A stretch of DNA of 33,231 nt, taken from NCBI GenBank assembly GCA_031279825.1, contig JAITHT010000038.1, forward strand, positions 1 to 33,231, read 5' to 3'. The notes beneath the pieces are model-generated. The model made no database searches, was not told the DNA's origin, and was given only the letters and a program-made list of their open reading frames with translations. A program made the position numbers and the translations under genes. The DNA comes from Desulfovibrio sp. GTDB taxonomy: Bacteria; Desulfobacterota; Desulfovibrionia; Desulfovibrionales; Desulfovibrionaceae. The first letter of the stretch is position 1; every line of letters begins with the position of its first letter. Shown one piece after another: positions 16,107-33,231 of this stretch.

Positions 16107-16134
16107 ATTTTTCCCGATTTTTCCCTATTTTTCA
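16101..16134. repeat. Three tandem ~11-bp repeats at the RAYT element right end
   Basis: CCCTATTTTT, CCCGATTTTT and CCCTATTTTT follow one another. The minus-strand TAG stop of the methyltransferase (16127-16125) lies in the last copy, so the methyltransferase 3' end may have been trimmed or extended by the insertion. Confidence 0.75.
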
Positions 16135-16847: not shown

Positions 16848-17212
16848 GCTGTTTTTTCGTCCTTGCTTGATGGTTACGCCTACTTATTTTTTTTACTGGG
16901 CAAAATAGCAATAACGAAGATTAAAAGTCAATATGTTAAGCTTACATACCGTTCCGGCAAAAGCCGAAGATCACGTTGCGGCGACCTCACCTCAAGTGAA
17001 AATACCCCTCACGTTGCAGTCCTCTTTTGTCCATAGAGCGTGCTAAGCATATAATATTGTAAAATTATTACATATATTTCTATAATAAAAATAAGTAAAA
17101 ATATATTGCCGTTTTGATAGAATAAAAATGAAATAAAGTTGACAAAAGTTATCCGTTGCGACTAAGAGTGACAGAAGGGAGTATAGATGAAGAGAAAAAG
17201 GCATTAAAGGAT
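16848..17212. promoter_or_regulatory. AT-rich divergent spacer with dyad and possible -35 box
   Basis: The part at 17043-17145 is strongly AT-rich. It contains the dyad TGTAAAATTATTACA (17058-17072), which is operator-like, and a perfect TTGACA at 17139-17144 in front of the HTH gene; the matching -10 is poor. No gene is seen; a 64-codon minus frame here is low-complexity and lacks a ribosome site. Confidence 0.4.
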
Positions 17213-17563
17213 ATGAGCGCGCTCTCCGGCAAGACAACTTTCACTTTGGCGCAAGCTGCGGAACTGCTTAACTGCCATAGGGAAACGTTACGCCGCGCCA
17301 TCCGAAACGGAGAATTGCGAGCGGCCAAGCTTGGGCGCGAATTCCGAATCTCCCGCTTTGATCTTGAGGCGTTTTGGATAAGCAGCGGCGGCGGCGAACT
17401 ATTTGGAGGCGTTGCGGAAGAAAACGCGCAAAGGGAGCCTCCTCAGCCGGGGGAACTTGAGACGGCAAAGAAAAAAAGAGGAAGAAAACCGGCGCGGGGA
17501 GATCAGGAGCAGTTCAGCCTTTTACATTCACCAGGGGCGGATGCAAAAAAGAAGAGAGGATGA
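17213..17563 (+). CDS. Small excisionase-type HTH protein with AT-hook core
   Basis: A 116-aa protein if started at ATG 17213; in-frame GTG 17168 or TTG 17156 would extend it, and the ribosome site (AAAGG) is close to the ATG, so the start is uncertain. Residues 9-55 (FTLAQAAELLNCHRETLRRAIRNGEL ... KLGREFRISRFDLEAFW) form the helix-turn-helix of the MerR-like HTH_17/excisionase family. The C-terminal part is charged and contains KKKRGRKPARG with the AT-hook core RGRKP (89-93) and a basic end (AKKKRG). It probably binds AT-rich DNA, perhaps the adjacent AT-rich spacer. It could be a relic of a mobile element or a domesticated regulator. Confidence 0.65.
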   Translation: MSALSGKTTFTLAQAAELLNCHRETLRRAIRNGELRAAKLGREFRISRFDLEAFWISSGGGELFGGVAEENAQREPPQPGELETAKKKRGRKPARGDQEQFSLLHSPGADAKKKRG

Positions 17564-17654
17564 AAGCGGCATTTCGCCACGACGGTTAACAATTTCAGGG
17601 TGCCGGTTGACCGGCGGACATGATCGCATTATATGCGGATCACGTGTACTCTAG

Positions 17655-17687
17655 AAGTCGTTTCATAATGCATCATGAAATTGACTT
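17655..17687. repeat. Imperfect inverted repeat
   Basis: AAGTCGTTTCAT (17655-17666) and ATGAAATTGACTT (17675-17687) are near-complementary around an 8-base loop. A GC-rich inverted sequence, GCGGCGGAGCCGCC, follows near 17710. It lies between the HTH gene and the unknown 129-aa gene; its role is unknown. Confidence 0.5.
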
Positions 17688-17823
17688 CCGGTGCCGTCCC
17701 TTGGGGCGGTGCGGCGGCGGAGCCGCCGGAGCGAGCCGGAAAGCGTATTTTGCGGCGGAGCGATCTTCATAAATCGGTCTTTGGCCGACTTATGACATAC
17801 GTTGCAGTCAGGAGTATTTAAGG

Positions 17824-18213
17824 ATGAGCAAAGTAACCACAGGAGCTGTAACGGAAAAATTTTTTCTGCGCAGCGATAACGGGACTGAGCTGTATTTTTG
17901 CGGACAACTGTATTCCGAAAGCTCGTACTATGATGAAGAAACGGCAATGCTCACCCGTTTGCGGCTGTTCGTAACCGATACGGGGGATCAGGTCTATTCC
18001 ATTGTTTCCGGATCGGGGACGCAGAAAAGCCGTCGGCATTATTTTGTTTCCTCCATAGGCAGGCATTGCCGGGTGAGTGACGGCATCCAGAGTTTGGTGC
18101 TGCCTGTGGATATGCTTTTTGCCGCGGTTTTCGGATTATGCGGGATTGATCCGGATCGTGCCGAAGAGCTCCGGCCGGCCTTTGAAGAAAATTTGCGCAT
18201 GATAATCGGTTAA
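17824..18213 (+). CDS. Unknown 129-aa protein
   Basis: ATG 17824 has AAGG just upstream (TATTTAAGG) and an AGGAG at 17812-17816. The product (MSKVTTGAVTEKFFLRSDNGTE...) is soluble and of ordinary composition, with a beta-rich first half (LYFCGQLYSESSYYDEETAML, LRLFVTDTGDQVYSIVSGSG) and a helical end (VDMLFAAVFGLCGIDPDRAEELRPAFEENLRMII). No signal peptide or membrane segment is seen and I recognise no family. Good start signals and normal amino-acid use argue that it is real. It may share the AT-rich island with the HTH gene. Confidence 0.6.
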   Translation: MSKVTTGAVTEKFFLRSDNGTELYFCGQLYSESSYYDEETAMLTRLRLFVTDTGDQVYSIVSGSGTQKSRRHYFVSSIGRHCRVSDGIQSLVLPVDMLFAAVFGLCGIDPDRAEELRPAFEENLRMIIG

Positions 18214-18358
18214 TCCTCTGCGTTGCTTTATGTCCCTTACGCAAAGGCTTATGATTGAGCGTCCGTTCCGCCGTGTATGCCCGTACGCTTTTAATTGCCC
18301 ATGTGGATGATTGTGAATCGTTGCGCCAAAAAATACGCTGCCCTGGAACTCTTTTTTT

Positions 18359-18470
18359 AGAGCATTTTCACTTTGAAAATGCTTTGTCAACCGGCAGCGT
18401 GGGCGAAACCTGTTTTCGCCGGGGGCGGCGAGTGCAAGCTTGCAAAGGTAATCAGCTCACATTCGTTCAC
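18359..18470 (+). repeat. Dispersed palindromic repeat, long copy
   Basis: Arms AGAGCATTTTCA and TGAAAATGCTTT around CTT, then TGTCAACCGGCAGCGT, the hairpin GGCGAAAC/GTTTTCGCC, and GGGCGGCGAGTGCAAG with CAAAGGTAATCAGCTC. The blocks and order match the minus-strand copy at 9236-9378, without its internal insertion. It ends within about 5 bp of the stop codon of the radical SAM gene. Confidence 0.8.
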
Positions 18471-18474
18471 AGCG

Positions 18475-19689
18475 TCAGTAGCCCATAAGACCGCAGCAGC
18501 GGGTGCATGCGGGCATCAGCCCTTCGCGCGCGAGGCTGGAGCGAAAGCGCGTATAGGCGGCGTTGTTCCAAAGCGCGGTAATGCTTTCTTCCCGTACGTT
18601 GCCCACTACATAATCATGGTAGTCCCGGCAGGGAGACATGTTGCCGTTGGCGTCAAGTTCCACCGCCTGAAAAATGGAAATGCACCGATCAAAGCCGAAA
18701 GTGGCCGAATGGTCGGTGTAGTAGCGTTCCAAATCGTCCCGGTCGCTGAGGTTGGGGATGATGTTCACGGCCGGTGCCGCAAGAGAGGAAGAACGGCGCC
18801 TGACCTCGCGTAGTTGTTCCGCCAGAACGGCTCTGTCTTTAATCACCCAGTCGCCGACCCAGCCCCGGTGCAAGACGGGGGAAAAGCCGAAACGCCGGGT
18901 AAAATCCCTGTCGTGCGCTTCGGCGCGGCGCTCGTCAATCCACCAGGACAGGTACAGGACAAAGATGTCCACGTCCTTGGCGAACGCTTCGTAAATATCC
19001 ACAATGTGCCGCATATTGGCTTCGGAAAGCGTGGTCAGGGCGGCGACCAGAGGCAACCGGCTCTTGTGCCGGGCCTTTGCTTCCTTTATGGCGGCAAGGC
19101 CCTCCCGTATGTCCCGGAAGTTATCTCCGCCTCCGGCGGCGGGCCGGGCGGCGTTATGGACCCCGGCGTTATGCCCGTCAATGGACACCTGCAACAGAAA
19201 CATGGGCGCGGCGGCCAGCCGGGCCGCCGCGTCTTGCAACCCCGTACCGTTGGTGGCGAACGCCGCGGGCATATGCAGCCTTGTCGCATGCTCCACAATG
19301 TCCAGAGCGCCCGGGTACAGCATGGGTTCCCCACCCCAAAGATACACGGTGGGGCGATGCCCGTGCGCGGCCAAATCGTCCAGAAGCTCCCGGTAGCGTT
19401 CCGGAGGCAGTTCCTGCTTCTTCAACTCGCGCAGGTTCCTGCCGCGCAAAAAACCTTTATCCCCCCACTGGCCGCAGGTATGGCAGCGCAAGTTGCACGC
19501 GTCGGTTATCCGGATGGAAAGCTGCCGTATGCTCCGCGCCATCCCCTCTTCAGGCTTTTTATTGAGGAAATCAAAGAGGAATTTTTCCTTCTCCAGGCAT
19601 ATGAGGCTGGAGGCCATCCACGGTTTGGCGAGCACCTTGAGCGCGCTTTTCAGGAAGACGCCCGGCGACACGCTTGCTTTTCTGGACAT
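18475..19689 (-). CDS. Radical SAM protein with SPASM-like C-terminus
   Basis: A 404-aa protein from ATG 19689 (AGGAG five bases upstream); a longer frame to 19779 has no ribosome site and would run into the neighbouring gene. C65-x3-C69-x2-C72 (ACNLRCHTC) is the 4Fe-4S/SAM site, followed by YLWGGEPMLYP, the usual GGEP strand. The C-terminus has several cysteines (FDRCISIFQ, MSPCRDYHDYVVGNV, ACTRCCG) in the layout of an auxiliary-cluster SPASM or Twitch domain, with the ...G.v.PC...DYVVGN motif. Such proteins modify peptides or, in surface-polysaccharide loci, sugars or lipids. It lies 67 bp downstream of the glycosyltransferase on the same strand, so a glycan-related substrate is plausible but unproven. 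Confidence 0.85.
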   Translation of the reverse strand: MSRKASVSPGVFLKSALKVLAKPWMASSLICLEKEKFLFDFLNKKPEEGMARSIRQLSIRITDACNLRCHTCGQWGDKGFLRGRNLRELKKQELPPERYRELLDDLAAHGHRPTVYLWGGEPMLYPGALDIVEHATRLHMPAAFATNGTGLQDAAARLAAAPMFLLQVSIDGHNAGVHNAARPAAGGGDNFRDIREGLAAIKEAKARHKSRLPLVAALTTLSEANMRHIVDIYEAFAKDVDIFVLYLSWWIDERRAEAHDRDFTRRFGFSPVLHRGWVGDWVIKDRAVLAEQLREVRRRSSSLAAPAVNIIPNLSDRDDLERYYTDHSATFGFDRCISIFQAVELDANGNMSPCRDYHDYVVGNVREESITALWNNAAYTRFRSSLAREGLMPACTRCCGLMGY

Positions 19690-19756
19690 ACTTGCTCCTA
19701 TGGCATTGTGCGGCGCGCCTCGGCGTGACGATGCGCGCGCATGCGGCGGCGCCCGC

Positions 19757-20791
19757 TCAACTTGCGAGCAGTCCGGCAATGCAGGCTCTCAGGTCTTCGC
19801 GCCCGTCAAAATTGTGCGCGGCTATACGGGTTTTGTACGCGTCCAACGATGCCTCGAAACCGTCCATGGCATCCGGCGGAAGGTCAAAACGCATAAAGCA
19901 GCGCCCGTAGCCGTTATGCTGGACAAAATAGCCGTTCCAGTACTGTTCGTACAGCAGACGGCGAGGAAAACACAGACAGGGCTTACGCAAGTACAGGGCT
20001 TCCGTCAACAACCCGTGTCCGCCGCAAGAAACGACATACGCGCAGGAAGCCAAATCGTCGAGAAACTGCTCCCGTCCCGGCTCCCTGAAGATGATATTGC
20101 CCTGCCTTGACCGTTTCCCCTGGCCATAGACACGGTATTCCCGGCGGCGGCCCCCAAAGAGCGCCGTGATTTTGCGCAGGTCGCAATCCGGCAGATAGGC
20201 GACGGCGTGGTCTCCGTCGCCGGCCTGCAACGCCGGTACGTCGGAACGGGGTAGCGTGCCGAACATCCGGTCGCGCGCCGGATCCACGAGGGGCGGCTGG
20301 TGAAAGGAACTTATCAGGCAGCCGCTCACATTGGGCAGAAGCGCGCGCATAGCCGTGAGCAGCATGTACCTGGCAGGGATCTGCCCAGGCGGTCGGTGCG
20401 CGGTTCTTGAAACGACATGCTGGTGATCAAGGCTCACACAGGTTCTGCCGAGACGGGCGGCGGCGCGGGGCGTGAAATATTCGTAGTCCGTGATAATCAC
20501 CTTTGGGTCAAAGGCGGTGATGATTTCGGCCAGTCTGCGCACATGCCCCGCCTGCGCGCCCAGCATGCGGGCAAAGTCCCGCAGGGTAGCCCCTATCCGG
20601 AGTTCCCCGTTATGTACCCGCGTGCCAACGACAGGCAAAGGAACGCAGTCGTAGCCGGCGCTGCGGACGCGCTCCGCCATGCCGCCGCCGGCAAAGAGCA
20701 ATTCATGCCCGCGCAACAGTTCCGCCACAGCCATGGCCCTGTTGACGTGCCCGCCGGCATCCCCCTGAATTCCATACAATATCCTCGCCAT
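19757..20791 (-). CDS. MJ1255/MurG-like glycosyltransferase (GT-B)
   Basis: A 344-aa protein with MARILYGIQGDAGGHVNRA at the N-terminus (residues 10-19, the glycine loop of GT28-like enzymes), a central SLDHQHVVS and a C-terminal donor-binding motif CGGHGLLTEAL (256-266) followed by KPCLCFP and EQYWNG. This pattern fits the MJ1255/VC2487-type family of putative UDP-sugar transferases (TIGR00661), with no membrane segment. The start ATG 20791 follows GGGGGTG. It probably forms one transcript with the radical SAM gene and diverges from the acyltransferase operon across a 193-bp spacer that should hold both promoters. Confidence 0.82.
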   Translation of the reverse strand: MARILYGIQGDAGGHVNRAMAVAELLRGHELLFAGGGMAERVRSAGYDCVPLPVVGTRVHNGELRIGATLRDFARMLGAQAGHVRRLAEIITAFDPKVIITDYEYFTPRAAARLGRTCVSLDHQHVVSRTAHRPPGQIPARYMLLTAMRALLPNVSGCLISSFHQPPLVDPARDRMFGTLPRSDVPALQAGDGDHAVAYLPDCDLRKITALFGGRRREYRVYGQGKRSRQGNIIFREPGREQFLDDLASCAYVVSCGGHGLLTEALYLRKPCLCFPRRLLYEQYWNGYFVQHNGYGRCFMRFDLPPDAMDGFEASLDAYKTRIAAHNFDGREDLRACIAGLLAS

Positions 20792-20984
20792 ATCACCCCC
20801 ACCACCGGCGGTGGCCGCGCTTTTCCGGAACCGCCCCCGGCGCGGCGCCGGCGATACTCCTGCCTCGCCGCCCGTCTTTCACTGCGTATTGACGGGACGC
20901 AGCCCGGCATGTATTTAAAGTTTTATCTTTACTGTATCGCGTAATGACCTTCATCCGTAACGTCCGCAATACAAAGGCTCCGCA

Positions 20985-22178
20985 ATGATGTCAAACGCCG
21001 CAACCCCAATCTCCGGCCAAGCTATGAACATATCCCGCGCGACGGGCATATCCGTCGAACCCGTACGTTCACATCGCGACATGCGGCTGTTCCTGGAAAC
21101 TCCCCTGCTCCTGCACGGGGATGAGCCCTTGTATGTCCCCCTGCCCATGTTCATGGAAAAGGACCAACTCGCTCCGGCGCGCAATCCTTTTTGGAAACAC
21201 GCGGAACGCGGGCTTTTCGTCGCGCTGCGCGCAAACCGTCCCGTGGGGCGCATAGCCGCCGTTATCGACCATCATCTGGACGCCGCCGCCGGGCAGCGCG
21301 TGGGCGTCTGGGGCTATTTCGCCTGCGAGGACAATGCCGATGTCGCCCAAGCCCTGTTTCATGCCGTCGAGGATTGGCACGGCGCACGGTCGGAAGGCGG
21401 AGCGGTCTTTTTGCGGGGGCCGCTTAATCCCTCCCTCAATTACACCGCCGGCATGCTTGTGGAAGGTTTCGAGCACTTTCCGCCGTTCATGAACCCCTGG
21501 AATCCTCCTTATTATCCCGCGCTTGCCGAGGCCTGCGGCATGGAAAAGGAACAGGATCTGTTTTTTTACCGCTTTTCCCGCCTGGACAATGTTTCCGTCT
21601 GCCATCAGGAACTGGATAAGGACTTTACCCGAAATACCGGCTTTCGTCTGCGCCGTTCAACCAAGGCGACCTATGACGACGACATGCGCCTGCTCGCCGA
21701 TTTATATACCCGTTGCTGGTCGGGCAATTGGGGTTTTACCCCCATAAGCGCGGAAGAAATGAGGTATTCCTGGCTTGTCATGCGCCACCTGCCCACCGTG
21801 GCGGAGCTTATTTTTCTCGAACAGCGGGGAGAGGCCGTGGGCATGATACTCTTCGGCGCGGATCTCGGCCAGATATTGAAGCGCCTGAACGGTCGGCTTT
21901 CCCTGGCCGCGCTCTGGCACTTCATGCGCGGTCTGCGCAGCATCCGAAGGGTACGTATGTTCATGTTCGGGATCGCTCCGGAATGCCGGCGGGGCATCGC
22001 CACCTTCCAACTGCTGTACGGCGCCGTCAAGCTGTTCGCGGATACGGCCCAGCTTGACTATATGGACGCAGGGTGGATCCTTGAGGAAAACGCCAACATC
22101 AACCATATATGCGAACGCTTGCAGGGCGAACGGCTGACCCGTGCGCGCGTTTATCGCCGGACCTGTTCGCGCGCCTGA
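20985..22178 (+). CDS. GNAT-fold acyltransferase of the YghO / bacterial ceramide-synthase-like family
   Basis: A 397-aa protein. Residues about 30-190 carry the signature of the YghO-type family: LFLETPLLLHGDEPLYVPL, ARNPFWKHAERGLFVAL, RPVGRIAAVIDHHL, GVWGYFACEDNADVA, LRGPLNPSLNYTAGMLVEGF and NPWNPPYYPALAEACGMEK. The C-terminal half is a second GNAT-like lobe (ADLYTRCWSGNWGFTPIS, FGIAPECRRGIATFQLLYGAVK, MDAGWILEENANINHICE). The characterised relative I know is the Caulobacter bacterial ceramide synthase, which N-acylates a sphingoid base. By inference this enzyme N-acylates an amino lipid. Only four bases separate its stop from the next ATG. ATG 20985 and ATG 20988 are both possible. Family match is from memory, not a search. 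Confidence 0.65.
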   Translation: MMSNAATPISGQAMNISRATGISVEPVRSHRDMRLFLETPLLLHGDEPLYVPLPMFMEKDQLAPARNPFWKHAERGLFVALRANRPVGRIAAVIDHHLDAAAGQRVGVWGYFACEDNADVAQALFHAVEDWHGARSEGGAVFLRGPLNPSLNYTAGMLVEGFEHFPPFMNPWNPPYYPALAEACGMEKEQDLFFYRFSRLDNVSVCHQELDKDFTRNTGFRLRRSTKATYDDDMRLLADLYTRCWSGNWGFTPISAEEMRYSWLVMRHLPTVAELIFLEQRGEAVGMILFGADLGQILKRLNGRLSLAALWHFMRGLRSIRRVRMFMFGIAPECRRGIATFQLLYGAVKLFADTAQLDYMDAGWILEENANINHICERLQGERLTRARVYRRTCSRA

Positions 22179-22182
22179 CGCC

Positions 22183-23172
22183 ATGCGGATATTCGTCACC
22201 GGAGGCGCCGGCTTTGTGGGCCGCCATATCGTCCGCCGTCTGCGCGCGGCAGGGGCGGAGGTTTCGGTGCTCGTCCGCGCCGGATCGGATCGTTCCGTGC
22301 TGCCGGCGGACGTGCGCCGCGTCACGGGAGAACTCGGCGCGCGCGGCGCGGTTCCTGCGCAGTTGCGCGACAGTCTGGGCAACGCCGACGCCGTTATCCA
22401 CTGCGCCGCCCGCCTCTTTGCCTCGGACTGGCGGGAGTATCTGCGCGACAACAGCCTCGGGGCGGAGCATTTGGCGACAATGATTGCCGCTCACGGGCGC
22501 AATGTCCAACGAGTCATCATGTTGTCAAGCCTTGCCGCCGCCGGCCCCTGCGGCGATGTTCCGGGAATCGCCGAGGCCTCCCCCCCGGCTCCCGTTTCCG
22601 CCTACGGCTGGTCCAAGCTTATGGCCGAGTGGGCGATGGAAAAACACGTGAGGGACGACCGCCTGACCATCCTGCGCCCGCCCATCGTTTACGGCCCGGA
22701 AGACAAAGCACTGGCCCCGCTGTTCGGGCTTGCCGCGCGCGGGCTGGTGTTGCAGGCTGGGCGCGGGGAGACGCCGTATTCTTTTCTGTATGTGGAGGAT
22801 TTGGTGGATGCCGCGCTGCTGTGCCTGTATGCGCCGCGCGCTGCCGGAACATACCATCTTGAGGACGGACGGCCTTCCTCCCTGCGGGAATTCGGGGAGA
22901 TCATCGCCCGCGCGGTCGGTCGCCATCCCCGGCGCGTCGTCCTACCGCATGCCCTGATCCGGCTGGCGGCGCAAGGAAGCGCTTTCGCCGCGCGCCGCCT
23001 GCCGGGGCGCTTCTTTCCCCTGACTCCGGACAAAGCCCTGGAAGGCCGTCAGAAGGGCTGGCTGGCCGATGGCGCGAAATTCCGCCGGGAGTTCTCCTTT
23101 ACGGCCACAACCGCTCTGGAACAAGGCGTTGCCGCCACCCTGCGCTGGCGGGAAAACACGAAGAAAAACTGA
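22183..23172 (+). CDS. NAD(P)-dependent epimerase/dehydratase-type reductase (SDR)
   Basis: A 329-aa extended SDR. TGGAGFVG (6-13) binds the nucleotide, the catalytic Tyr and Lys are in YGWSK (141-145), and SSLAAAG supplies the Ser. Then come LRPPIVYGPED, SFLYVEDLVDAALLC and a C-terminal RQKGWLAD helix. The Caulobacter ceramide reductase belongs to the same broad family, as do hopanoid-associated HpnA and many sugar epimerases. The direct coupling to the ceramide-synthase-like gene (4-bp gap upstream, 2-bp gap downstream) makes a lipid-reductase role attractive. A nucleotide-sugar epimerase is the main alternative. ATG 22183 was chosen over an upstream GTG that overlaps the acyltransferase. 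Confidence 0.75.
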   Translation: MRIFVTGGAGFVGRHIVRRLRAAGAEVSVLVRAGSDRSVLPADVRRVTGELGARGAVPAQLRDSLGNADAVIHCAARLFASDWREYLRDNSLGAEHLATMIAAHGRNVQRVIMLSSLAAAGPCGDVPGIAEASPPAPVSAYGWSKLMAEWAMEKHVRDDRLTILRPPIVYGPEDKALAPLFGLAARGLVLQAGRGETPYSFLYVEDLVDAALLCLYAPRAAGTYHLEDGRPSSLREFGEIIARAVGRHPRRVVLPHALIRLAAQGSAFAARRLPGRFFPLTPDKALEGRQKGWLADGAKFRREFSFTATTALEQGVAATLRWRENTKKN

Positions 23173-23174
23173 CG

Positions 23175-24446
23175 ATGCACACACGGCAAACTTGCGTCCC
23201 TGTAGTGGCCTATATCTCTCATTGGTTTCCCAAGGCATCGGAAACTTTTGTTTTTTATGAGGCGGAAGGGTTATTCCTTCGAGGGCTCCCTATTTCGGTA
23301 TACTCGTTGTACGGATGGCGGGGAGGCAATCTCAGCCCGCATATGCGGCGAAGCCCCATCCCTGTGGAACGCCTCGGCCTTCGCGCCCTGCCGCGTATCG
23401 CGGCCGCCCTGTGGCGGGCCTTGCGAAGCGATCCGCAAAAAAGCGCGGCTATTCTGCGGGATATTTTCTTCCGCCCGTGGAGAACCCTTGAACTGCGACT
23501 GGAAAATGCCTGGGCCGGGCTCTGCGCGTTTTACCTGGCCGAGAGTTTCCGCGCGCGCGGAGTGGAACATATACACGCGGCCTGGGGCAACGGCCCGGCG
23601 ACAGCGGCCTGGATCGTTCACCGTCTTACAAAAATTCCCTTTTCCATTTCCGTCCATTCCGGCGACGTGCGCCCTTCCGACGGCGCCCTGGCCGAAAAGC
23701 TGAAAAGCGCCCGCTTCGCCAGAGCCAACGTCTCCTGCAACATGCCCTGCCTTGCGGCGCTGGAGCCGGGCACGGACAAGCATCACTTGATTTACAACGT
23801 GTGCACCCTTGCCGCCGCTTCTCCCGCCGAGGTCCGCATGCTCCCCCCTCTTCGCCTGCTCTGCGTGGGAAGATTATTGTGGCTTAAGGGCTTTCAGTAT
23901 GCCGTGGAGGCCGTGCACCTGCTGCGGAAACGCGGCCTTGAGGCGGAATTGACCCTGGTCGGTTCCGCCGGCTGGGCCGATATGTCGGCGGGCTCCTGCG
24001 AACGGAAACTGAAAAGGATGGTCCGGGATCTGCATCTGGACAAGCAGGTGCTGTTTCGCGGATTCGTTACGCACGACAATGTGGGGGCGCTCATGGCGGC
24101 TTCGGACATGCTGCTCATGCCTTCCATCGTCCTGCCGGGCAGCGGCCGGTCGGACAGCCTGCCCAACGTGATTATGGAAGCCTCCCTTCACGGCCTGCCC
24201 GTTATCGCCACCGACGTCGCCGGTATCGGAGACGTCGTCCGCCACGGCGAGACCGGCCTGCTGGTGCCCGAACGCGACGCTTCCGCCCTGGCCTCGGCGA
24301 TTGAACGTCTCGCGCGGGATCGAGAAGAGGCGCTACGCATGGCCGCAAACGCCAGAGATCTGGTGACGGCCATGTTTGATCCCGACGTTACGCTCGGCAG
24401 TTTGACGGCGCTCTTCTCGCGACATGCCGGGACGGCCGGAACATAA
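23175..24446 (+). CDS. GT4-family glycosyltransferase
   Basis: A 423-aa retaining GT-B enzyme. The N-terminal domain starts VAYISHWFPKASETFVFYEA, typical of exopolysaccharide glycosyltransferases, with HIHAAWGNGPATAAW and the acceptor-side SVHSGDVRP. The donor domain has LLCVGRLLWLKGFQYAVEA, FRGFVTHDNV, LMPSIV, and the nucleotide-sugar motif EASLHGLPV ... GIGDVV. No membrane helix is seen; it would work at the cytoplasmic face on a lipid-linked acceptor. ATG 23175 follows the reductase stop by two bases, indicating translational coupling, and its own stop is followed by AAGGA for the deacetylase gene. Confidence 0.88.
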   Translation: MHTRQTCVPVVAYISHWFPKASETFVFYEAEGLFLRGLPISVYSLYGWRGGNLSPHMRRSPIPVERLGLRALPRIAAALWRALRSDPQKSAAILRDIFFRPWRTLELRLENAWAGLCAFYLAESFRARGVEHIHAAWGNGPATAAWIVHRLTKIPFSISVHSGDVRPSDGALAEKLKSARFARANVSCNMPCLAALEPGTDKHHLIYNVCTLAAASPAEVRMLPPLRLLCVGRLLWLKGFQYAVEAVHLLRKRGLEAELTLVGSAGWADMSAGSCERKLKRMVRDLHLDKQVLFRGFVTHDNVGALMAASDMLLMPSIVLPGSGRSDSLPNVIMEASLHGLPVIATDVAGIGDVVRHGETGLLVPERDASALASAIERLARDREEALRMAANARDLVTAMFDPDVTLGSLTALFSRHAGTAGT

Positions 24447-24456
24447 GGAAACACGC

Positions 24457-25527
24457 ATGCTCGACGCGGACGACGCTTCTTCGCTCTCCCCGGCATCTTT
24501 CGGAAAGGTGCGCCTGCTGTTCTCCATTGACGTGGAAGAAGAGGGCCTCTTTTGCGGGCGCTACGCACGCACTGGCGCCACCGTCAACAATGTACCGCAT
24601 CTTACGCGCCTTGCGCCTGCGCTCGCCCGCTTCTCCCTGCCCGTGACCCTGCTCTGCACACATCGCGTTTTCAACGACAAGACGGCCCTTGACGCGCTCG
24701 ACGCCATGCGCAAGGCAGTGCGCGTGGAAATCGGCGCTCACCTGCACCACTGGGATACGCCGCCTTTTGAGGAAAACATCCGCCGGGACGACACCCGCTA
24801 TATTTGCCCCGGCGGCCTGTCTCCCCATCTTTTCCGGCAGCGTCTGGAATCTCTCTTCACAGCGGGGAAAGCTTATAACGGCGCGCCGCTCACCAGCTTC
24901 CGCATGGGAAGATGGCACCTGCACCGGTGGCACTGGCCCTATCTTGCCGACACCGGGGCGCTTGTGGATTCTTCCGTCCGCCCGCTGCATTACGCCGCGC
25001 GCGGCCCGGATTTTTTCGCGGCTCCGGCCGAACCCTATTATGTGCCTGTCAGCGGCGCCCTGCTTATTGAATCGCCCATGACCTGCCTGCCGCTTTACAG
25101 GGCTCTGCCCTCTCATTTCCGCGCCCTGGAACAGATCGCGGGGAAAGGACCGGCGGCCGGGGCGGCACAGGCGCTGAAAAGCGCCGCGCGCGCATGGGGA
25201 GTTCTCGGACTCACGCCCGTCTATCATCCCTTATGGGCTATGAAACGCATCACCAAACTGCATCTGGCCAGAGGAGGCCGCTTTCTCTCCATGACCTGCC
25301 ACTCTTCGGAACTCATGCCCGGCGGCGCGCCGCATATGCCGGACGAAGCCGCCGTCAACGCCCTGATCGGACGCATGGAAGGCTATCTTTCCTGGCTGCA
25401 CGGCTTTTGCCCGGTGCAGGGTATGACGCTTGACGATCTGCGGCGCTGCGACGGCATCCGGCACATGGATGAAACGGATGCGGACGGAGATTGGCTATGG
25501 CGTCCGCAACCCTCTGGAGCAGACTAG
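24457..25527 (+). CDS. NodB-like polysaccharide deacetylase
   Basis: A 356-aa protein from ATG 24457 (AAGGA six bases upstream), ten bases after the GT4 stop. SIDVEEEG (23-30) supplies the metal-binding Asp of motif 1, GAHLHHWDTPP (93-103) the His pair of motif 2, and FRMGRWHLH the later Arg/Trp motif. No signal peptide is evident, so it probably acts on a cytoplasmic lipid-linked sugar or N-acyl group rather than on exported polymer. In a locus with an N-acyltransferase and two glycosyltransferases it may remove an N-acetyl group from an added amino sugar. This family also contains inactive members, but the key residues appear present. Confidence 0.78.
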   Translation: MLDADDASSLSPASFGKVRLLFSIDVEEEGLFCGRYARTGATVNNVPHLTRLAPALARFSLPVTLLCTHRVFNDKTALDALDAMRKAVRVEIGAHLHHWDTPPFEENIRRDDTRYICPGGLSPHLFRQRLESLFTAGKAYNGAPLTSFRMGRWHLHRWHWPYLADTGALVDSSVRPLHYAARGPDFFAAPAEPYYVPVSGALLIESPMTCLPLYRALPSHFRALEQIAGKGPAAGAAQALKSAARAWGVLGLTPVYHPLWAMKRITKLHLARGGRFLSMTCHSSELMPGGAPHMPDEAAVNALIGRMEGYLSWLHGFCPVQGMTLDDLRRCDGIRHMDETDADGDWLWRPQPSGAD

Positions 25528-25701
25528 GGAATGTTAACGCTATGCCTTTTTGCCCTCCGGCTGCGTCGGATTGTGTCCGCCATCCCGGTCAAATACCGTA
25601 AGAGTATATTCCTCACGGCAGACTCATCTTCCTTGCCGGAGAATAAAAATTCTATAATGTTAACACGTCCTGGAGTATCTTCAAAGTGAAAATGCTCTAA
25701 C
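25528..25701. mobile_element. MITE-like repeat element inside the glycolipid operon
   Basis: Inverted ends of about 35 bp bound 25529-25670. The left end reads ATGTTAACGCTATGCCTTTT then TGCCCTCCGGC. The right end on the minus strand reads GACGTGTTAACATTATAGAA then TTTTTATTCTCCGGC. A degenerate copy of the dispersed palindrome (ACTTTGAA core, TGAAAATGCTC arm) follows at 25675-25698. No coding sequence. It fills the only large gap in the operon, between the deacetylase and GT2 genes. Confidence 0.6.
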
Positions 25702-25803
25702 ATATGGAAAAAAGGCGCGGCGTCAACCAAGCAGGCGGCATGGACCGAGAAATCCATGTCTCCTGCGCTTGATCGGGATTTCAAACCGCAAAGGAGCTGG
25801 CGG

Positions 25804-26997
25804 ATGAACCTGTTTCTTCTGCTTGCATGGGCGGTTTCAGCCGGACTGCAAACCGGCGTTCTCGCCCTGGCGTGGTGTGTCGGGACCTCCCCTTCCGACG
25901 AAGCGGACGAGGCGGAAGCCGAGCCCGTTCCATCCTCCCCTCCCCTGGTGACCCTGATTATCCCCTGTTCCGGCCGCTCCCCGGACATGGAAGCGGCCCT
26001 GCATTCTCTGCTGCGGCAGGATTATCCCGCCCTCGCCGTGCTGCTTGTCACCCACGGCGTCGAGGATCCGGCCCGGCAACTGGCCCAGACTCTGGCGGCG
26101 CGGTACGCCCACACGCGCCATGTCGACGCCGGAACGGCGGAGTTCTGCGGACAGAAAAACCGTAATCTGCTCGACGCCTTACGGGAAGCGGCTCCCGCAA
26201 CGGCGGCATATGTCTTTTGCGATGCCAACCACCTGGCGAAACCGGATTTCATCCGCCGTCTGACGGAACCCATCCTTCTCGGCCGGGAAACATTCTGTTC
26301 CGGCTACAGGCGCACGCGCCTGCTTGCCGCCGAACCTAATGCCGTGGCCTGTCATATTCTTGTCCGGCATCTCGGCCTGCTGCAAAGCCTGCCCGCATTC
26401 ACGCAACCATGGGGAGGCGCGTTCGCGGCCGATGCCGCCGCTTTTCGGGAATTGAACGTGGCGGCGCTCTGGGAAAAGACCGTGGTGGACGACGTTTCCC
26501 TGGCCGGTTTACTTATGCGCGAAGGAATCCGGGTGAGCTATCGCCAGCAGGCCATACTGGACAGTCCGTTACGGGCAATGAGCGAACAGCAGTTGCAGGA
26601 CTGGTTTTTCCGCCAACTCTTCTACCCGAAATTTTATACCTTCGCCGTTTGGATAACGCTGGGAATCTCCCTTGCCTGGTTTGCGGCAATCGCCTGCGCC
26701 GATCTGCTCTTGCTCGCCGTCTGGGCGTCCGGTAACGGGCTTCCGGCCGCAACGGGACCTCTGGCCCTTGCCCATCTGGGACTGCCCCTTGTCTTTCAGG
26801 AACGCCTGCGCCGCCGTGCCGCCCCGGACTGCCCGCCCCCCCTCTGGCGGCGGGGTTTGCGCCTCGCGCTACAAACCCTGTGTACCGCCTTCTGCCGGAC
26901 CGTCTTCTCCCGCGGCCTTGTCTGGCGCGGCATACGCTACCGTCTGGCGGCGAACGGACTGGTAATCAAGGTGGAGCATCCCGGGCCGAAAGGCTGA
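25804..26997 (+). CDS. GT2/GT21-like membrane glycosyltransferase
   Basis: A 397-aa protein; ATG 25804 has AAAGGAG at good distance and is preferred to the upstream ATG at 25756. An N-terminal hydrophobic helix (residues 2-27) is followed by a GT-A domain with VTLIIPCSG, GQKNRNLL (117-122, as in ceramide glucosyltransferases), FCDANHL (D140), a glycine patch QPWGGAF, and the acidic VVDDVSLAGLL (D229, D230). QDWFFRQLFYP stands where QxxRW is usual. Two or more C-terminal membrane helices follow. The layout resembles ceramide glucosyltransferase and HpnI more than ordinary GT2 enzymes. The likely job is to add a sugar to a membrane lipid. It is separated from the operon upstream by a repeat element. 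Confidence 0.7.
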   Translation: MNLFLLLAWAVSAGLQTGVLALAWCVGTSPSDEADEAEAEPVPSSPPLVTLIIPCSGRSPDMEAALHSLLRQDYPALAVLLVTHGVEDPARQLAQTLAARYAHTRHVDAGTAEFCGQKNRNLLDALREAAPATAAYVFCDANHLAKPDFIRRLTEPILLGRETFCSGYRRTRLLAAEPNAVACHILVRHLGLLQSLPAFTQPWGGAFAADAAAFRELNVAALWEKTVVDDVSLAGLLMREGIRVSYRQQAILDSPLRAMSEQQLQDWFFRQLFYPKFYTFAVWITLGISLAWFAAIACADLLLLAVWASGNGLPAATGPLALAHLGLPLVFQERLRRRAAPDCPPPLWRRGLRLALQTLCTAFCRTVFSRGLVWRGIRYRLAANGLVIKVEHPGPKG

Positions 26998-27009
26998 ACA
27001 CAGCGCACA

Positions 27010-27081
27010 GCGTTGCGGCGGAGGCTTGGGCTGGGACCAAACCCCGCCCGGGAGATCTCCCGGCCCACGCTACCGCAACGC
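27010..27081. terminator. Nested hairpins between convergent genes
   Basis: Perfect outer arms GCGTTGCGG (27010-27018) and CCGCAACGC (27073-27081) enclose a 16-bp perfect palindrome CCGGGAGATCTCCCGG (27048-27063). The structure fills the spacer between the GT2 stop and the flippase stop and overlaps the latter. There is no T-run on either strand, so any termination would be atypical or bidirectional. Confidence 0.4.
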
Positions 27082-28428
27082 CCTGACGTTGCGCAGGAAA
27101 ATCAGCGCCAGCCCCACCGTGCAGGCGGCCATCCATATCTTGGTGCCGGAAATGGCCCAGGCCGCCCCCAACGCCCCCTGATCGGGTATAAGCAGCGCGC
27201 AGAGCGCGATATTGCACAAAAGACCGCTTGCGTAGGCCAGCAGTAAGGGCCTGTACTGTTGCATGCAGATCAGCATGGAGGCCGCGAGGTTATGCAGCGA
27301 AGAGGCCAGCAGGCAGGGCAACTGTGCGCGGAGCAAAGGCGCGGAAGCGGCGTAGGCCTGCCCGTACAGCAACGGCAGCAGACGTTCGCCGGTCGCGGCA
27401 AGAATAAAGGAAAGCGCCAGTCCGAACAGCAGCAAGCCCGCGCCGATGACGCCGCAGGTACGTGCGAAGGACCTTATGTCTTTCTGCCACCGGCCTGCCA
27501 GATGGGGAAAAATCACCTTGGCCAGAAAAGCGCCGGAAACCAACACGCTGAGTCCGTCCACGATTTCCCATGGCGCGTTGTACAGGCCAAGGGAATATTC
27601 GCCGCCGTGCCGGTCCAGAACGTACATGTTCAGCTTGTTGTATAAAAGGGCGCACACGGCGATGCCCGTGAAGGAAAGCCCATGGCGCCACTCGCCGATC
27701 CATCTCCCGCACCCGGTGGGGAACCCGCCCAGCCGCCAGCGCAAGGCTCTGCCGATCAGAACGCAGGCAACCGACGATTCCACAAGCTTGAAACAGGCGA
27801 GAAACGCCGGCGGGAATCCCGACAACAGGCAGGCGATGCCGAAAAGACTGCCCGCCAGACTTGCCGGAACGGTGATGCGCATTTCCGTATCCTGGCGCCC
27901 CCGTATCCGGCAAAGCACGAAGAACGATTGGACAGCCGTATTCAGACCCATACCGGCGGCGACAATCAGATTGACCGCGCTTTTTTGCGGGCCGTAGCCC
28001 AAAAGCAGGCAGAGCAGAGCAAGAAGGGCGAGCGAGAGAAGCAGCAGACCCGTCTGCAAAAACATGGCCTGCGCCAGAATGCGGCGTACGGGCGCGCGCC
28101 GTCGCGTCATCAGGGGGACAAGATAATCCTTGAGGCCGGCGTCTGTCGCCATGTTCACCAACGCGCCCAGAGCCATGGCCAAAGTGAAAAAGCCGTACAA
28201 TTCAGGGCCGGAACGGGCCAGCAGGATCAAAAGAACGCCCGTCAGGAGGCTGCTGCCCCACTGCGCGCAAAACACATAGCCGAAACGGCCGGCCAGGACG
28301 CGGGCCGTACCGCCGCCCCGCAATCCGCTCTTTTCCCTTTGCGGCGTCGGCACGGAACAGCTCTTTTCGCCGCCGGACGCGCCCGTGATCGTGTGTAAAA
28401 AAAACAAGAACAGCTCTCCCGGCAACAA
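27070..28428 (-). CDS. Wzx-like polysaccharide/lipid flippase (MOP superfamily)
   Basis: A 452-aa protein if started at TTG 28428. No in-frame ATG lies near the start, and GTG 28350 or a later TTG are also possible, so the first 30-40 residues are uncertain. About twelve hydrophobic segments follow (for example SSLLTGVLLILLARSGPELYGFFTLAMAL and LLLLSLALLALLCLLLGY), with conserved polar turns such as ATDAGLKDYLVPLM near the end of the second helix. This matches O-antigen or capsule flippases that move undecaprenyl-linked or other glycolipids across the inner membrane. Convergent with the glycosyltransferase operon, it is the obvious export partner for its product. Confidence 0.82.
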   Translation of the reverse strand: MLPGELFLFFLHTITGASGGEKSCSVPTPQREKSGLRGGGTARVLAGRFGYVFCAQWGSSLLTGVLLILLARSGPELYGFFTLAMALGALVNMATDAGLKDYLVPLMTRRRAPVRRILAQAMFLQTGLLLLSLALLALLCLLLGYGPQKSAVNLIVAAGMGLNTAVQSFFVLCRIRGRQDTEMRITVPASLAGSLFGIACLLSGFPPAFLACFKLVESSVACVLIGRALRWRLGGFPTGCGRWIGEWRHGLSFTGIAVCALLYNKLNMYVLDRHGGEYSLGLYNAPWEIVDGLSVLVSGAFLAKVIFPHLAGRWQKDIRSFARTCGVIGAGLLLFGLALSFILAATGERLLPLLYGQAYAASAPLLRAQLPCLLASSLHNLAASMLICMQQYRPLLLAYASGLLCNIALCALLIPDQGALGAAWAISGTKIWMAACTVGLALIFLRNVRALR

Positions 28429-28581
28429 CCTTACATGCCCGTTAAGAATTCCGGACGGCAGACCGCCTCAAAATTTCGGACGCGCACGAGTATACGTCTA
28501 AAGATTTTGGGAGGCAATTCCGGTTGTTGCAACATAGACGGCTGGTGAACAATCTGTTGGAACATGACACTTGCCGGACAA

Positions 28582-29613
28582 TTACACGTTACCCAGGACT
28601 TGACGGACTACAGCGAGCGTTTTGAAACCATGCCGTTCGTCGGGTTCCAGGTGGCAGCCCTCACCCCATTCATTCCATGCATTGATGAATATATACTGCA
28701 AATTCTGCGGGAGAGTCTTCCGCGTGTGGTCCACGGCGTGCTCCAGCGCATATTTGAATGCCCCCAGGGTGCAGTTGTTGAAAATCGTGGCTACATTTTT
28801 ATAACGGGGACTGTTGTCCCACCCGGGAAAAACGCACCGGAGTCTGGTATACGAAGGCGCGGGCTTGCTGATCATATTCGCGATAACTGTCTGATAATCA
28901 ATAACTCTTGGAGAATATGCATTTTTTGCAAATTCCGTCGCGCAATACCAGTCGGGCGCGAATTCCACTGTGGCGTCAAAACCATAGACGGACGGAGCAG
29001 GTCTGTACCTCAGCGCTTCCACGCTTGCCAGAAACAATCCCGCAAAGCCCTCCTTATGGGCAAGGTGCCGCCATATGGCGATGTATTCTCCCATAAGGGG
29101 ATTGCTTATGGGATCATAGATCAAAAAAAAAGGCTTTTGATCAATGGTTATATATCGCTCATGGGCAAGGTATGACTTGACATCGTAAAAAAACTTTACC
29201 GCATTTTCCCGACTGTATTCCTGCTTGATGAGTATTTCCTTATTTTGGCCGTACCATGCTCGTGTCCAGTCATGATTCGCCCAGCAAAGACAAAATGCGT
29301 TAGTAATGCCGGTATGGCGAGCGATAATGCGAAGAGGCTCTTCCAAAAGAGTTTTGCCTGCAAAGTTGTAATAGTAGTAGCAGAACGCCGATACGCCATA
29401 GCGCAATGCCATTTTGTGCTGTTTCTCTATCCAATTTTCATCCAGCAGATTGTAATATCCAATGCTTTTATGAGGAATATGCGGCTGATAATGACCTTCA
29501 TAATAAGGAACGGCGGCTCTAACATTGTGCCATTCCGTGAAACCCTCTCCCCACCACTCATTATTCTCGCTAATGATATGATATTGGGGCAGGTATATGG
29601 CGATCGCTTTCAT
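28582..29613 (-). CDS. WbsX / GH99-like glycan-locus protein
   Basis: A 343-aa protein from ATG 29613 with GAAGG about seven bases upstream. Hallmarks of the Glyco_tran_WbsX (GH99-like) family are visible: AIYLPQYH at the start, WWGEGFTEW (20-28), YYEGHYQPHIPHKSIGYYNL, FCLCWANHDWTRAW, and FINAWNEWGEGCHLEPD near the end. Such proteins are encoded in O-antigen and capsule clusters, and they may cleave or transfer alpha-mannose-type glycans (the true activity is unsettled). The gene is visibly more AT-rich than the operon opposite, suggesting separate acquisition. It precedes the flippase by 153 bp on the same strand. Confidence 0.85.
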   Translation of the reverse strand: MKAIAIYLPQYHIISENNEWWGEGFTEWHNVRAAVPYYEGHYQPHIPHKSIGYYNLLDENWIEKQHKMALRYGVSAFCYYYYNFAGKTLLEEPLRIIARHTGITNAFCLCWANHDWTRAWYGQNKEILIKQEYSRENAVKFFYDVKSYLAHERYITIDQKPFFLIYDPISNPLMGEYIAIWRHLAHKEGFAGLFLASVEALRYRPAPSVYGFDATVEFAPDWYCATEFAKNAYSPRVIDYQTVIANMISKPAPSYTRLRCVFPGWDNSPRYKNVATIFNNCTLGAFKYALEHAVDHTRKTLPQNLQYIFINAWNEWGEGCHLEPDERHGFKTLAVVRQVLGNV

Positions 29614-29710
29614 GTTTTTTCCTTCGCTGAGGCGATGGCGTGTTGGGTGTGCGACATATACGACCTGTTTATAAAAATCATTTTATTACAGCATCTTGTG
29701 CGTAAGACGC

Positions 29711-31090
29711 CTACTTTACACGCGCGGGCGCTTTGCTGAAGATGACGGCCGTTATCAGGTTGATCAGACCAATCCAGAGAAAGGCGCTGTGAAATATCCG
29801 GGTGAGGCGTTCCTCCGGAGGCAGCGGGGAGTAGGCCAGGGTGAAGGTGTCAAGCAGAGCCGCCGCTATGGCCACGCCGCCGCAGGATGACAACTGCATG
29901 GTAACGGAGAGAAGGGTATTGCCGCCGCTCGCATGCCGGTCCTCAAGTTCAATAAGGGTAATGGCATTCATGGCGGTAAACTGCATGGAGTTGACCGTTC
30001 CGAAAAGCCCGAGCAGCAGAAGAAGAGCCGCATACGGCGTTTCTTTGCCCACAAGGGAAAACGCGGCCATCAGCCCTCCCAGCAGGAGAGTGTTGATGGT
30101 GAGGAAGCAACGGAATCCCACTCTCCTGAGCAGGGCGGCAATCATCTGTTTGCCGGCAATGCCGGCCAGGGCTGTGGGGATCATGGTCATGCCGGCGGCA
30201 AAGGGCGAATAGCCCAGAACAAGCTGAAGAAACAGGGGTGTCAGAAAGGGCATGGCGCCGGAGCCGAGGCGGGAGACGGTATTGCCCAGTATGCCCACGG
30301 CAAAGCTGCGGGTATGAAAAAGAGACGGGCTGAACAAAGGCAGGGGCACGCGCGCGCCGCGTAGCCAATACATCGCCATAAGCGAAATCCCGGCAATGCC
30401 GGAAAGAGAGGATATGAGGAGGGGCAGGCGCAATTCTCCCAGGCCTTCCACAGCCAGGGTGAGAAGCACGAGAGAGGCGCTGAAAAAGGCAAAGCCCTTA
30501 CTGTCGAAACTGCCGATAACGCGTTCTTTGAATTCCGGCATGCAGCGAAAAGCGAGTAGCGCGCCGACAAGGCCCACAGGGAGGTTAATCAGGAAAATCC
30601 AGTGCCAGGAGGCGTATTCGACGAGAAAACCGCCGACGGCGGGTCCCGCCAGCGGTCCGATCAGGCCGGGTATGGTAACAAAACTGAGCACCCGCACGAG
30701 TTCCTTGCGCGGGTAGGCTTTGAGTATGGCCAATCGCCCCACCGGCACCATGATTGCCCCTCCCATGCCCTGGATGACGCGCGAAATGACCAGAGTTTCC
30801 AAGGATGGCGACAGGGCGCAGAACAGGGAACCCGCGGTGAACAGGCATATGGCGGAACAAAAGGTGTTTCTGGCGCCGAAGCGGTCAGCCAGCCAGCCTG
30901 ATGCCGGAATAATCAGGGCGGTGGTCAGCATGTAGGCGATAATCGCCGCGTGCATGCGCACGGCTGAGATTCCCAGTTCGCGCGCCATGCCGGGCAGGGC
31001 CGTGTTGAGAACAGTGCTGTCCAGCAGTTGCATGAAGAGTGCAACGGCCACAATCCACAGCAGTATGCGATCTCTTCGGGGGGCAGGCAT
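29711..31090 (-). CDS. DHA2-type MFS multidrug exporter (EmrB/QacA-like)
   Basis: A 459-aa membrane protein from ATG 31090, 32 bp after the cstA stop; GTG 31102 is an alternative and a longer upstream frame overlaps cstA. Helix 1 has FMQLLDSTVLNTALPGMARELG, the family's motif D1, then SGWLADRFGAR (motif A) and VISRVIQGMGGA (motif B), and GPLAGPAVGGFLVEYASWHWIFLINLPVG (motif C region), as in 14-helix drug-proton antiporters. The substrate cannot be inferred. It probably forms an operon with cstA. Confidence 0.88.
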   Translation of the reverse strand: MPAPRRDRILLWIVAVALFMQLLDSTVLNTALPGMARELGISAVRMHAAIIAYMLTTALIIPASGWLADRFGARNTFCSAICLFTAGSLFCALSPSLETLVISRVIQGMGGAIMVPVGRLAILKAYPRKELVRVLSFVTIPGLIGPLAGPAVGGFLVEYASWHWIFLINLPVGLVGALLAFRCMPEFKERVIGSFDSKGFAFFSASLVLLTLAVEGLGELRLPLLISSLSGIAGISLMAMYWLRGARVPLPLFSPSLFHTRSFAVGILGNTVSRLGSGAMPFLTPLFLQLVLGYSPFAAGMTMIPTALAGIAGKQMIAALLRRVGFRCFLTINTLLLGGLMAAFSLVGKETPYAALLLLLGLFGTVNSMQFTAMNAITLIELEDRHASGGNTLLSVTMQLSSCGGVAIAAALLDTFTLAYSPLPPEERLTRIFHSAFLWIGLINLITAVIFSKAPARVK

Positions 31091-31122
31091 ATCGGCGATC
31101 ACGCGCTTTTCATCGCCGGGGA

Positions 31123-32874: not shown

Positions 32875-32900
32875 CAGAACTTCCTTTGTGGTCTGAAACC

Positions 32901-32955
32901 CCGGCCTTCATGCCGGATATAGCCCCGACCCCGCCATGAAGGGCGGGGTTTCTTT
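32901..32955 (+). terminator. Tandem hairpins upstream of cstA
   Basis: CCGGC-CTTCAT-GCCGG (32901-32916) is followed by CCCCGCC-ATGAAG-GGCGGGG (32929-32948) and TTTCTTT, a good intrinsic-terminator shape on the plus strand. No plus-strand gene ends here. It could instead be an IS200/IS605-type subterminal hairpin or a structure in the cstA leader. Confidence 0.45.
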
Positions 32956-32979
32956 CCGGGGCGGAAAGCTCGGCCTTAT

Positions 32980-33045
32980 TCTGACATCCTCCTCCGCCTG
33001 AAGTCTGGGAATTTCAGCAGAGAACGCTTACGCGGCTTGCCCGGC
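32980..33045 (-). mobile_element. Possible IS200/IS605 (tnpB-type) right-end remnant
   Basis: Read on the minus strand, GAAATTCCCAGACTTCAGGC is followed by GGAGGAGGATGTCAGAA, closely like the conserved 3' ends of IS605/IS1341-type elements, where the omega RNA overlaps the right end. No tnpB reading frame is visible between here and the window edge. Recognition is from memory of such ends. Confidence 0.35.
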
Positions 33046-33150
33046 CGCCGAGGAGAGTTTGGAACAGGCAAGGCAGAAAGGCAAGAAAATTCTTGAGGCG
33101 CGTTTGATACTGCGATAACGTACGATATTTTTCGCACAATGAAAAAATGA

Positions 33151-33218: not shown

Positions 33219-33220
33219 AA

Positions 33221-33231
33221 ATGGAAGCTAT
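33221..33231 (+). CDS. Start of a truncated gene (MEA...), edge of window
   Basis: ATG 33221 follows AAGGAAGG at good distance and continues to the window edge as Met-Glu-Ala. Too little is visible to name it. The hairpin just upstream and the IS-like sequences nearby make a transposase possible, which is a guess. Confidence 0.3.

Follow-up and report, generated by a model that had tools for sequence, protein, structure and literature searches.

Ceramide synthesis in bacteria has been described for Caulobacter and E. coli, where it involves Spt, AcpR, AasR, CerR and CerS (PMC9386255, PMC11324152). In Pseudomonas fluorescens MYb115 a monomodular type I polyketide synthase (PKS) followed by an alpha-oxoamine synthase (AOS), together termed SgaAB, yields sphinganines and, with the KDSR-type SgaC, a PG-sphingolipid (PMC12134224). 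A subset of Deltaproteobacteria is counted among the known sphingolipid producers (PMC12134224). In the gut, sphingolipids are known to be made by Bacteroidota, and these lipids affect the host (PMC11334938). Here we analysed a stretch of 33,231 nt from Desulfovibrio sp. (assembly GCA_031279825.1, contig JAITHT010000038.1, complete stretch hereafter called the window), which carries five genes with similarities to these systems.

An earlier interpretation of the same DNA from its letters alone (the sequence-only reading) had taken the five genes for an operon that builds and glycosylates an N-acylated long-chain base or another amino lipid. Our analysis supports this assumption: a synthase of sphingoid-base type is present in the genome, genes 1 and 2 match the respective families, and genes 1, 4 and 5 track sphingoid synthases across genomes. 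We consider it likely that a bacterial sphingo-glycolipid pathway, every chemical step of which we infer, has its tailoring and export genes at positions 18475–28428 of the window. For the backbone, a PKS and an AOS encoded elsewhere in the genome are the probable source, whereby contig C27 would supply the locus.

The acyltransferase and putative reductase genes

The five plus-strand genes were found at the positions given by the sequence-only reading, separated by gaps of 4, 2, 10 and 228 bp. Our listing of open reading frames (ORFs) puts two starts further upstream, namely at 22141 (GTG) for gene 2 and 24424 (ATG) for gene 4; the starts used here are plausible alternatives.

Gene 1 (20985–22178, plus strand) was rightly labelled YghO-type, being 28% identical to E. 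coli YghO over 380 aa (E 5e-43). E. coli yghO adjoins spt, acyl carrier protein (ACP), epimerase and acyl-AMP ligase genes. YghO is listed together with the Caulobacter ceramide N-acyltransferase CC_1154 (PMC9386255), and the link of gene 1 to the Caulobacter enzyme runs via this listing. A GNAT match in Pfam stays below threshold (16.9 versus a cutoff of 20.7 bits), no NCBIfam family was matched and a PDB sequence search gave chance-level matches only. Gene 1 is GNAT-type, with a tandem GNAT fold in the predicted model. As a member of the YghO/bCerS family it would probably N-acylate a sphingoid base.

Gene 2 (22183–23172, plus strand) is a short-chain dehydrogenase/reductase (SDR) as proposed, and of the epimerase type (PF01370, E 1.6e-33). 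It shares 29% identity with the SDR of the E. coli spt locus and 33% with the SDR of a Rubrobacter plasmid cluster in which AOS, YghO-family gene and SDR follow each other in this order. Against NCBIfam 25 matches were listed, HpnA and OleD first, all of them below the cutoffs. Gene 2 immediately follows gene 1 in 5/5 close relatives within the family and in all 16 of a set of named Desulfovibrionaceae genomes or loci that carry both genes. These named loci were found with a six-row alignment of gene 1, the best 80 of at least 550 confirmed relatives being examined; one of them (G059) is identical to genome G003 of the family sample described below, so that the set adds only 15 new genomes. 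Because the adjacency recurs in both groups, it is more than chance. The PF01370 match, the similarity to the E. coli spt locus and the neighbourhood of gene 1 identify gene 2 as an SDR of the epimerase type within a ceramide gene context, and we infer that it acts as a CerR-like 3-oxo-ceramide reductase. Membership of non-lipid families was also considered for both genes; they match the bacterial ceramide N-acyltransferase family and epimerase-type SDRs.

Several observations weigh against this assignment. SDRs form a broad superfamily. In a tree of gene 1, a quick tree with midpoint root like that of the AOS below, the gene falls outside the clade of YghO and most relatives linked to serine palmitoyltransferase (SPT; SH-aLRT 100). 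It sits on a long branch within a clade of 43 rows (clade I), made up of the window gene, 17 Desulfovibrio-type rows, L070 and 24 others. Among these 24, 22 have no SPT in view and 14 adjoin PKS-like sequence. Clade I YghO-family genes are located upstream of megasynthases in Deltaproteobacteria and others (L099, L107, L116, L118, L120, L123), and we take these megasynthases to be similar to polyunsaturated fatty acid synthases. In L107, L120 and L123 the megasynthase gene (2333–2693 residues) follows, and L116 and L118, probably L123 too, hold a second YghO-family homolog of the other clade. Such an arrangement would fit a clade I enzyme that hands a megasynthase-made acyl chain to another acceptor; gene 1 would then acylate another amine or an alcohol and the product would be a non-ceramide amino-lipid. 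We regard this as quite unlikely, since a PKS-clade AOS (55–63% identical) is present in 16 of 16 named genomes with a Desulfovibrio clade I gene, and since the row nearest to the Desulfovibrio group, L070, is found with a canonical SPT and an SDR. Moreover genes 4 and 5 occur with close and distant relatives of gene 1 alike: gene 5 in 5/6 genomes with close relatives (own genome included) and 11/11 with distant ones, gene 4 in 6/6 and 7/11, respectively.

The probable sphingoid-base synthase and its distribution

As the sequence-only reading had stated, no SPT is encoded in the window; no AOS of any kind was seen there. The source genome (2.2 Mb, 94 contigs, 83.5% complete) yields 12 PF00155 matches, two of which are AOS: a BioF-like gene on contig C61 and a gene on C27. 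The search for an SPT or AOS with an adjacent ACP gene, which the sequence-only reading had suggested, was thus successful in part. An AOS of sphingoid-base type lies on C27 behind a type I PKS, and a canonical SPT with a stand-alone ACP was not found in this 83.5%-complete genome.

The C27 AOS gene overlaps the end of a gene for a 2584-residue type I PKS with the domain order KS-AT-DH-ER-KR-ACP. In a tree of 70 rows the AOS is placed within the clade of PKS-linked AOS, apart from the SPT clade (SH-aLRT 100). The pair therefore has the SgaAB-type layout, a monomodular reducing PKS with an AOS of the PKS-linked clade directly behind it. The tree was built without SgaB itself, and the rows that place C27 are PKS-linked AOS from plasmids of Pseudomonas, Paraburkholderia and Caballeronia. 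SPTs linked to YghO-family genes form a different clade, and the C27 AOS is accordingly not a canonical SPT.

The distribution of the genes was evaluated in an even sample of 59 family genomes, taken out of a larger group. Homologs of gene 1 occur in 17 of these, of gene 4 in 13 and of gene 5 in 17; for gene 5, a match of more than 120 bits was counted as presence and nine more genomes (E 2.6e-8 to 1e-3) were scored absent. A sphingoid synthase of the SPT or PKS clade, assigned by placing AOS hits on trees, is found in 16/17 genomes with gene 1 versus 3/42 others (p 1.4e-10). Counted by genus, the ratios are 12/13 versus 3/31 (p 2.6e-7), and leaving out the genome of the window they are 15/16 versus 3/42. 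The exceptions are G030 (64% complete), in which gene 1 was found and a synthase was not, and G011, G014 and G017 with a synthase and no gene 1. Gene 5 homologs are present in 16/17 gene 1 genomes versus 1/42 others, and gene 4 homologs in 13/17 versus 0/42. Homologs of genes 4 and 5 are linked in G040 and G030. The type strain of D. piger, ATCC 29098, is among the carriers of genes 1 and 2.

These results have to be set against a number of less favourable ones. The genomes in the counts are not independent, and the association of gene 1 with the PKS-clade AOS alone is modest (6/17 versus 2/42, p 0.005). A short AOS is present in 15 of the 16 named carriers, and in 14 of 16 it has no complete adjoining PKS; a PKS-adjoined AOS occurs in only 5/16, namely in G059 and as a second copy in G066, G069, G071 and G072. 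Within the PDB the C27 AOS scores 230.6 bits to a chain labelled BioF/KBL versus 214.5 bits to SPT, so that sequence alone does not settle its substrate. For Nostoc it was reported that an AOS gene alone is no proof of sphingolipids (PMC8895605). Among 15 genomes of the own genus gene 1 is found in one (the others being 65–96% complete), and an assumption that it is common in the genus was rejected on this ground; PKS-AOS pairs occur in at least 7 of the 15, the counts being lower bounds. Hence the product of the PKS-AOS needs no gene 1, and gene 1 was either gained here or lost elsewhere. G011 and G017 likewise hold a PKS-AOS without gene 1.

Part of this would also be explained if the ceramide chemistry is assigned correctly and the base does not come from C27, the synthase being encoded in sequence missing from the assembly or the base being taken up from the gut. 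With a genome 83.5% complete there is room for a missing synthase, other genomes of the genus retain the PKS-AOS while lacking gene 1, and the short AOS of the named carriers is in many cases clustered with homologs of GT4 glycosyltransferases, gene 4 and flippases. No such short-AOS cluster was found in the own genome with PF00155, SPT and AT-ACP searches. Yet the C27 AOS and the BioF-like gene are the only AOS found there, and the short Desulfovibrio AOS nests inside the PKS-AOS clade. We therefore hold a different source of the base to be unlikely, and a supply from C27 is assumed in the following.

Proposed glycosylation, export and route

Gene 3 (23175–24446, plus strand) is a GT4 glycosyltransferase, in agreement with the sequence-only reading (Glyco_trans_1_4, E 5.4e-33). 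Similar GT4 homologs are found in 14 of 20 regions around PKS-clade AOS genes.

Gene 4 (24457–25527, plus strand) had been called NodB-like. Its profile matches DUF3473-type proteins with an hhalign probability of 95.5, which agrees with this name; the gene itself has no match in Pfam, nor any Pfam or NCBIfam family at E 0.01, which counts against the proposed role. DUF3473 is weakly recognised (best E 0.0053) in 6 of 16 gene 4 homologs. Residues D25, E27, E28, H95, H97, R149, D171 and H282 are invariant in 16/16 homologs and, as we assume, resemble polysaccharide-deacetylase motifs. PDB sequence searches with the gene and its profile gave chance-level matches only, and the single-sequence model (pLDDT 43.7) is too poor to use. 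Taken together, gene 4 is likely NodB-like and DUF3473-related, judged from profile and conserved residues, and would act as a sugar N-deacetylase.

Gene 5 (25756–26997, plus strand) had been described as a GT2 glycosyltransferase with motifs like those of ceramide glucosyltransferases. The GT2 assignment is confirmed (Glyco_tranf_2_3, 45.1 bits) and the motifs GQKNRNLL, CDANHL and VVDDVSLAG are present. The GT21 match (PF13506) stays below threshold with 17.9 bits against a cutoff of 21.7, and this too speaks against a ceramide glycosyltransferase. DD, QxWGGA and RQ positions are invariant in 9/9 aligned homologs. The best NCBIfam match is partial and to HpnI (47.7 bits versus a cutoff of 310). 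HpnI adds N-acetylglucosamine (GlcNAc) to a hopanoid, and a deacetylase acts next. By analogy one may speculate that gene 5, the proposed ceramide glycosyltransferase, adds GlcNAc to ceramide and gene 4 deacetylates it.

The gap between genes 4 and 5 is for the most part occupied by a dispersed repeat (25523–25727). Among the matches listed, its part at ~25523–25698 has at least 17 matches of 87–95% DNA identity, spread over 16 further contigs of the own genome, and weaker copies are also seen in genus mates. An imperfect 22-nt inverted repeat (25533–25554/25706–25727, 77% complementary) bounds positions 25533–25727. Since the gap consists mostly of this repeat, genes 4 and 5 may once have been closer, prior to an insertion.

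As a five-gene operon the unit is described correctly with respect to its genes and seemingly too narrowly with respect to its extent. Three minus-strand genes are likely to belong to the pathway: a radical SAM/SPASM protein (18475–19779, PF04055 and SPASM), the true start of which is probably inside this ORF, an MJ1255-type glycosyltransferase (19757–20791, PF13528, E 1.2e-49) and a Wzx-type flippase (27070–28428, Polysacc_synt_3) as the likely glycolipid exporter. Because homologs of all three recur in clusters of relatives, the unit probably spans ~18475–28428. In a comparison set of 143 other, partly overlapping loci, radical SAM homologs (52–67% identical) were found in 8 and MJ1255-type homologs in 9. 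In each case 7 of them are among 20 regions (L247–L266) that were chosen for holding gene 4 or 5, and co-location there is conditional on this choice. Flippase homologs (30–40% identical) occur in 16/143 loci, and 10 of these loci are AOS clusters of the PKS clade within the family.

The AOS clusters of relatives show a related composition. A gene 4 homolog is part of the AOS cluster in 13/16 named genomes, and flippase, HlyD and outer-membrane efflux genes occur in 8 of 20 AOS regions, several of which lie on short contigs. Genes 1, 2 and 5 are absent from the 20 PKS-clade AOS regions. In D. piger (L196) AOS, GT4, acyltransferase-ACP protein, exporter and flippase genes are found, with no gene 4 match within the 20 kb examined. 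In G020 (L070) a megasynthase, genes 1, 2 and 5, SPT and exporter genes are located within one 20-kb region. In the family, seven loci of the distant type (L075–L079, L081, L082) carry an uninterrupted series of SPT, ABC permease, HlyD and YghO-family genes, and six of them have OEP as well.

Two further protein families were observed in these clusters. A 1088–1170-residue protein, divergent from the short AOS in Desulfovibrio clusters, is encoded in L085 (5384–8896) and L086 (7311–10577), and matches are also found in L196, L201, L206, L208, L211, L213 and L214. The L085 copy has AT and ACP domains in Pfam and no ketosynthase, while by eye its C-terminus resembles degenerate KR and DH. In the own genome the AT-ACP protein of relatives has two matches to the acyltransferase part only, one of which is the C27 PKS. 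A second radical SAM family (66–68% identical to the L251 copy) lies a few kb from gene 5 homologs in L251, L262 and L070, and in L070 and L251 also a few kb from SPT.

The flippase, several glycosyltransferases and a WbsX-type gene among the neighbours in the window would equally suit a surface polysaccharide locus (capsule, O-antigen-like or exopolysaccharide), the lipid genes supplying an anchor or being incidental neighbours. PKS-AOS pairs are found beside polysaccharide export genes, e.g. in Caballeronia (L093). PKSs of the Rkp/Wcb capsule systems have AOS partners. WcbR and RkpA are named for these systems (PMC3908369). Yet genes 1 and 2 are ceramide-like, and across the 59 genomes the presence of gene 1 follows that of sphingoid synthases and of gene 5, which makes a polysaccharide product very unlikely in our judgement. 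If the polysaccharide were sphingolipid-anchored, the ceramide and polysaccharide readings would merge.

We judged it unlikely that the window contig had been mis-binned. The genes flanking the operon on both sides match same-genus genomes (positions 13300–33231 compared), the flanks on C27 do so as well with up to 81% DNA identity, and the window contig and C27 share dispersed repeats with many contigs of the own genome, some of these repeats being present in genus mates. The final 118 bases of the window (33114–33231) are repeated, wholly or for the most part, where contigs C16 and C30 end, so the window probably ends at an assembly break in a repeat. At its other end a repetitive open frame of 2128 residues (2–6385, minus strand), adhesin-like by eye, runs off the window start; a 2038-residue ORF (332–6448, plus strand) is probably a spurious antisense frame of it. 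An IS200-type Y1 transposase gene is located at 15404–16054, and positions 15793–16106 have a 94% identical match on contig C80.

Under a sphingo-glycolipid product the route would start with the C27 PKS building an acyl chain. The AOS would condense this chain with serine (alternatively alanine or glycine), giving a 3-oxo-sphingoid base. Gene 1 would N-acylate the base and gene 2 reduce the 3-oxo group to give a dihydroceramide. Gene 5 would attach the first sugar, possibly GlcNAc, from which gene 4 would take off the acetyl group. Gene 3 and the MJ1255-type enzyme may then lengthen the glycan while the radical SAM protein modifies glycan or lipid, and at the end of the route the flippase would carry the glycolipid across the inner membrane. 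The identity of the sugars and the order of the steps are put forward as a proposal.

It is possible, and we offer it tentatively, that intestinal Desulfovibrio including D. piger make unrecognised amino-sugar ceramides, with a base from a PKS-clade AOS, a ceramide synthase of a separate clade and an assembly from several loci that is partly fused in the genome of the window. These loci would be an acyltransferase-SDR pair, an AOS-glycosyltransferase-deacetylase-flippase set, a GT2-ABC exporter set and a radical SAM-glycosyltransferase set. If true, sphingolipid-like molecules in the gut would also stem from Desulfovibrio, so far unrecognised as their source, and surveys for canonical SPT could miss such producers because their AOS lies outside the clade of YghO-linked SPTs. 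With a candidate gene per step, the question whether gut sulfate reducers make sphingolipids becomes directly testable in a culturable strain.

Comparison with described systems

The PKS-AOS pairs on plasmids of Paraburkholderia, Pseudomonas and Caballeronia, some of them beside capsule-type genes, share PKS and AOS types with C27; in four such regions (L090–L093) no YghO-family match was found at E 1e-3. In L090, L091 and L093 the pair occurs with LTA synthase and SDR genes, to which L090 and L091 add a GNAT gene and L090 and L093 an LpxC-type deacetylase gene. The hopanoid glucosamine pathway with HpnI and HpnK resembles our locus by combining a GT2 with a sugar deacetylase acting on a lipid. 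In contrast, its acceptor is a hopanoid, and the match of gene 5 to HpnI is far below cutoff. Caulobacter GSL-2 is likewise a ceramide glycosylated by dedicated glycosyltransferases (PMC6445935); Sgt1 and Sgt2 are of GT-4 type, whereas here GT2, GT4 and MJ1255-type enzymes are combined with a deacetylase.

Sphingolipid potential at the level of the phylum Desulfobacterota has already been proposed: Black Sea metagenome-assembled genomes encode Spt-like proteins, with tentative production of 1-deoxyceramides (PMC11334938). That study used Spt-like clades, and its main text contains neither 'desulfovibrio' nor 'polyketide' (PMC11334938). In titles and abstract openings of the open-licence literature no paper on sphingolipid biosynthesis in Desulfovibrio was found. 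At the level of genomic evidence the sequence-only reading holds. Novelty lies in the combination, in Desulfovibrionaceae, of probable ceramide-type chemistry, a base synthase of the PKS clade and a set of genes dedicated to glycosylation and export.

With the ceramide pathway of Caulobacter and E. coli the locus shares a homologous N-acyltransferase, an epimerase-type SDR and a sphingoid-base synthase in the genome (PMC9386255, PMC11324152). It differs by an acyltransferase of another clade, by a PKS-clade AOS in place of Spt, AcpR and AasR, and by additional glycosyltransferase, deacetylase, radical SAM and flippase genes; moreover, none of the scanned window proteins matched LptF/LptG. SgaAB in turn resembles the C27 pair in its monomodular type I PKS followed by an AOS (PMC12134224); the present genome has in addition a gene of the ceramide synthase family, an SDR like CerR and genes for glycosylation.

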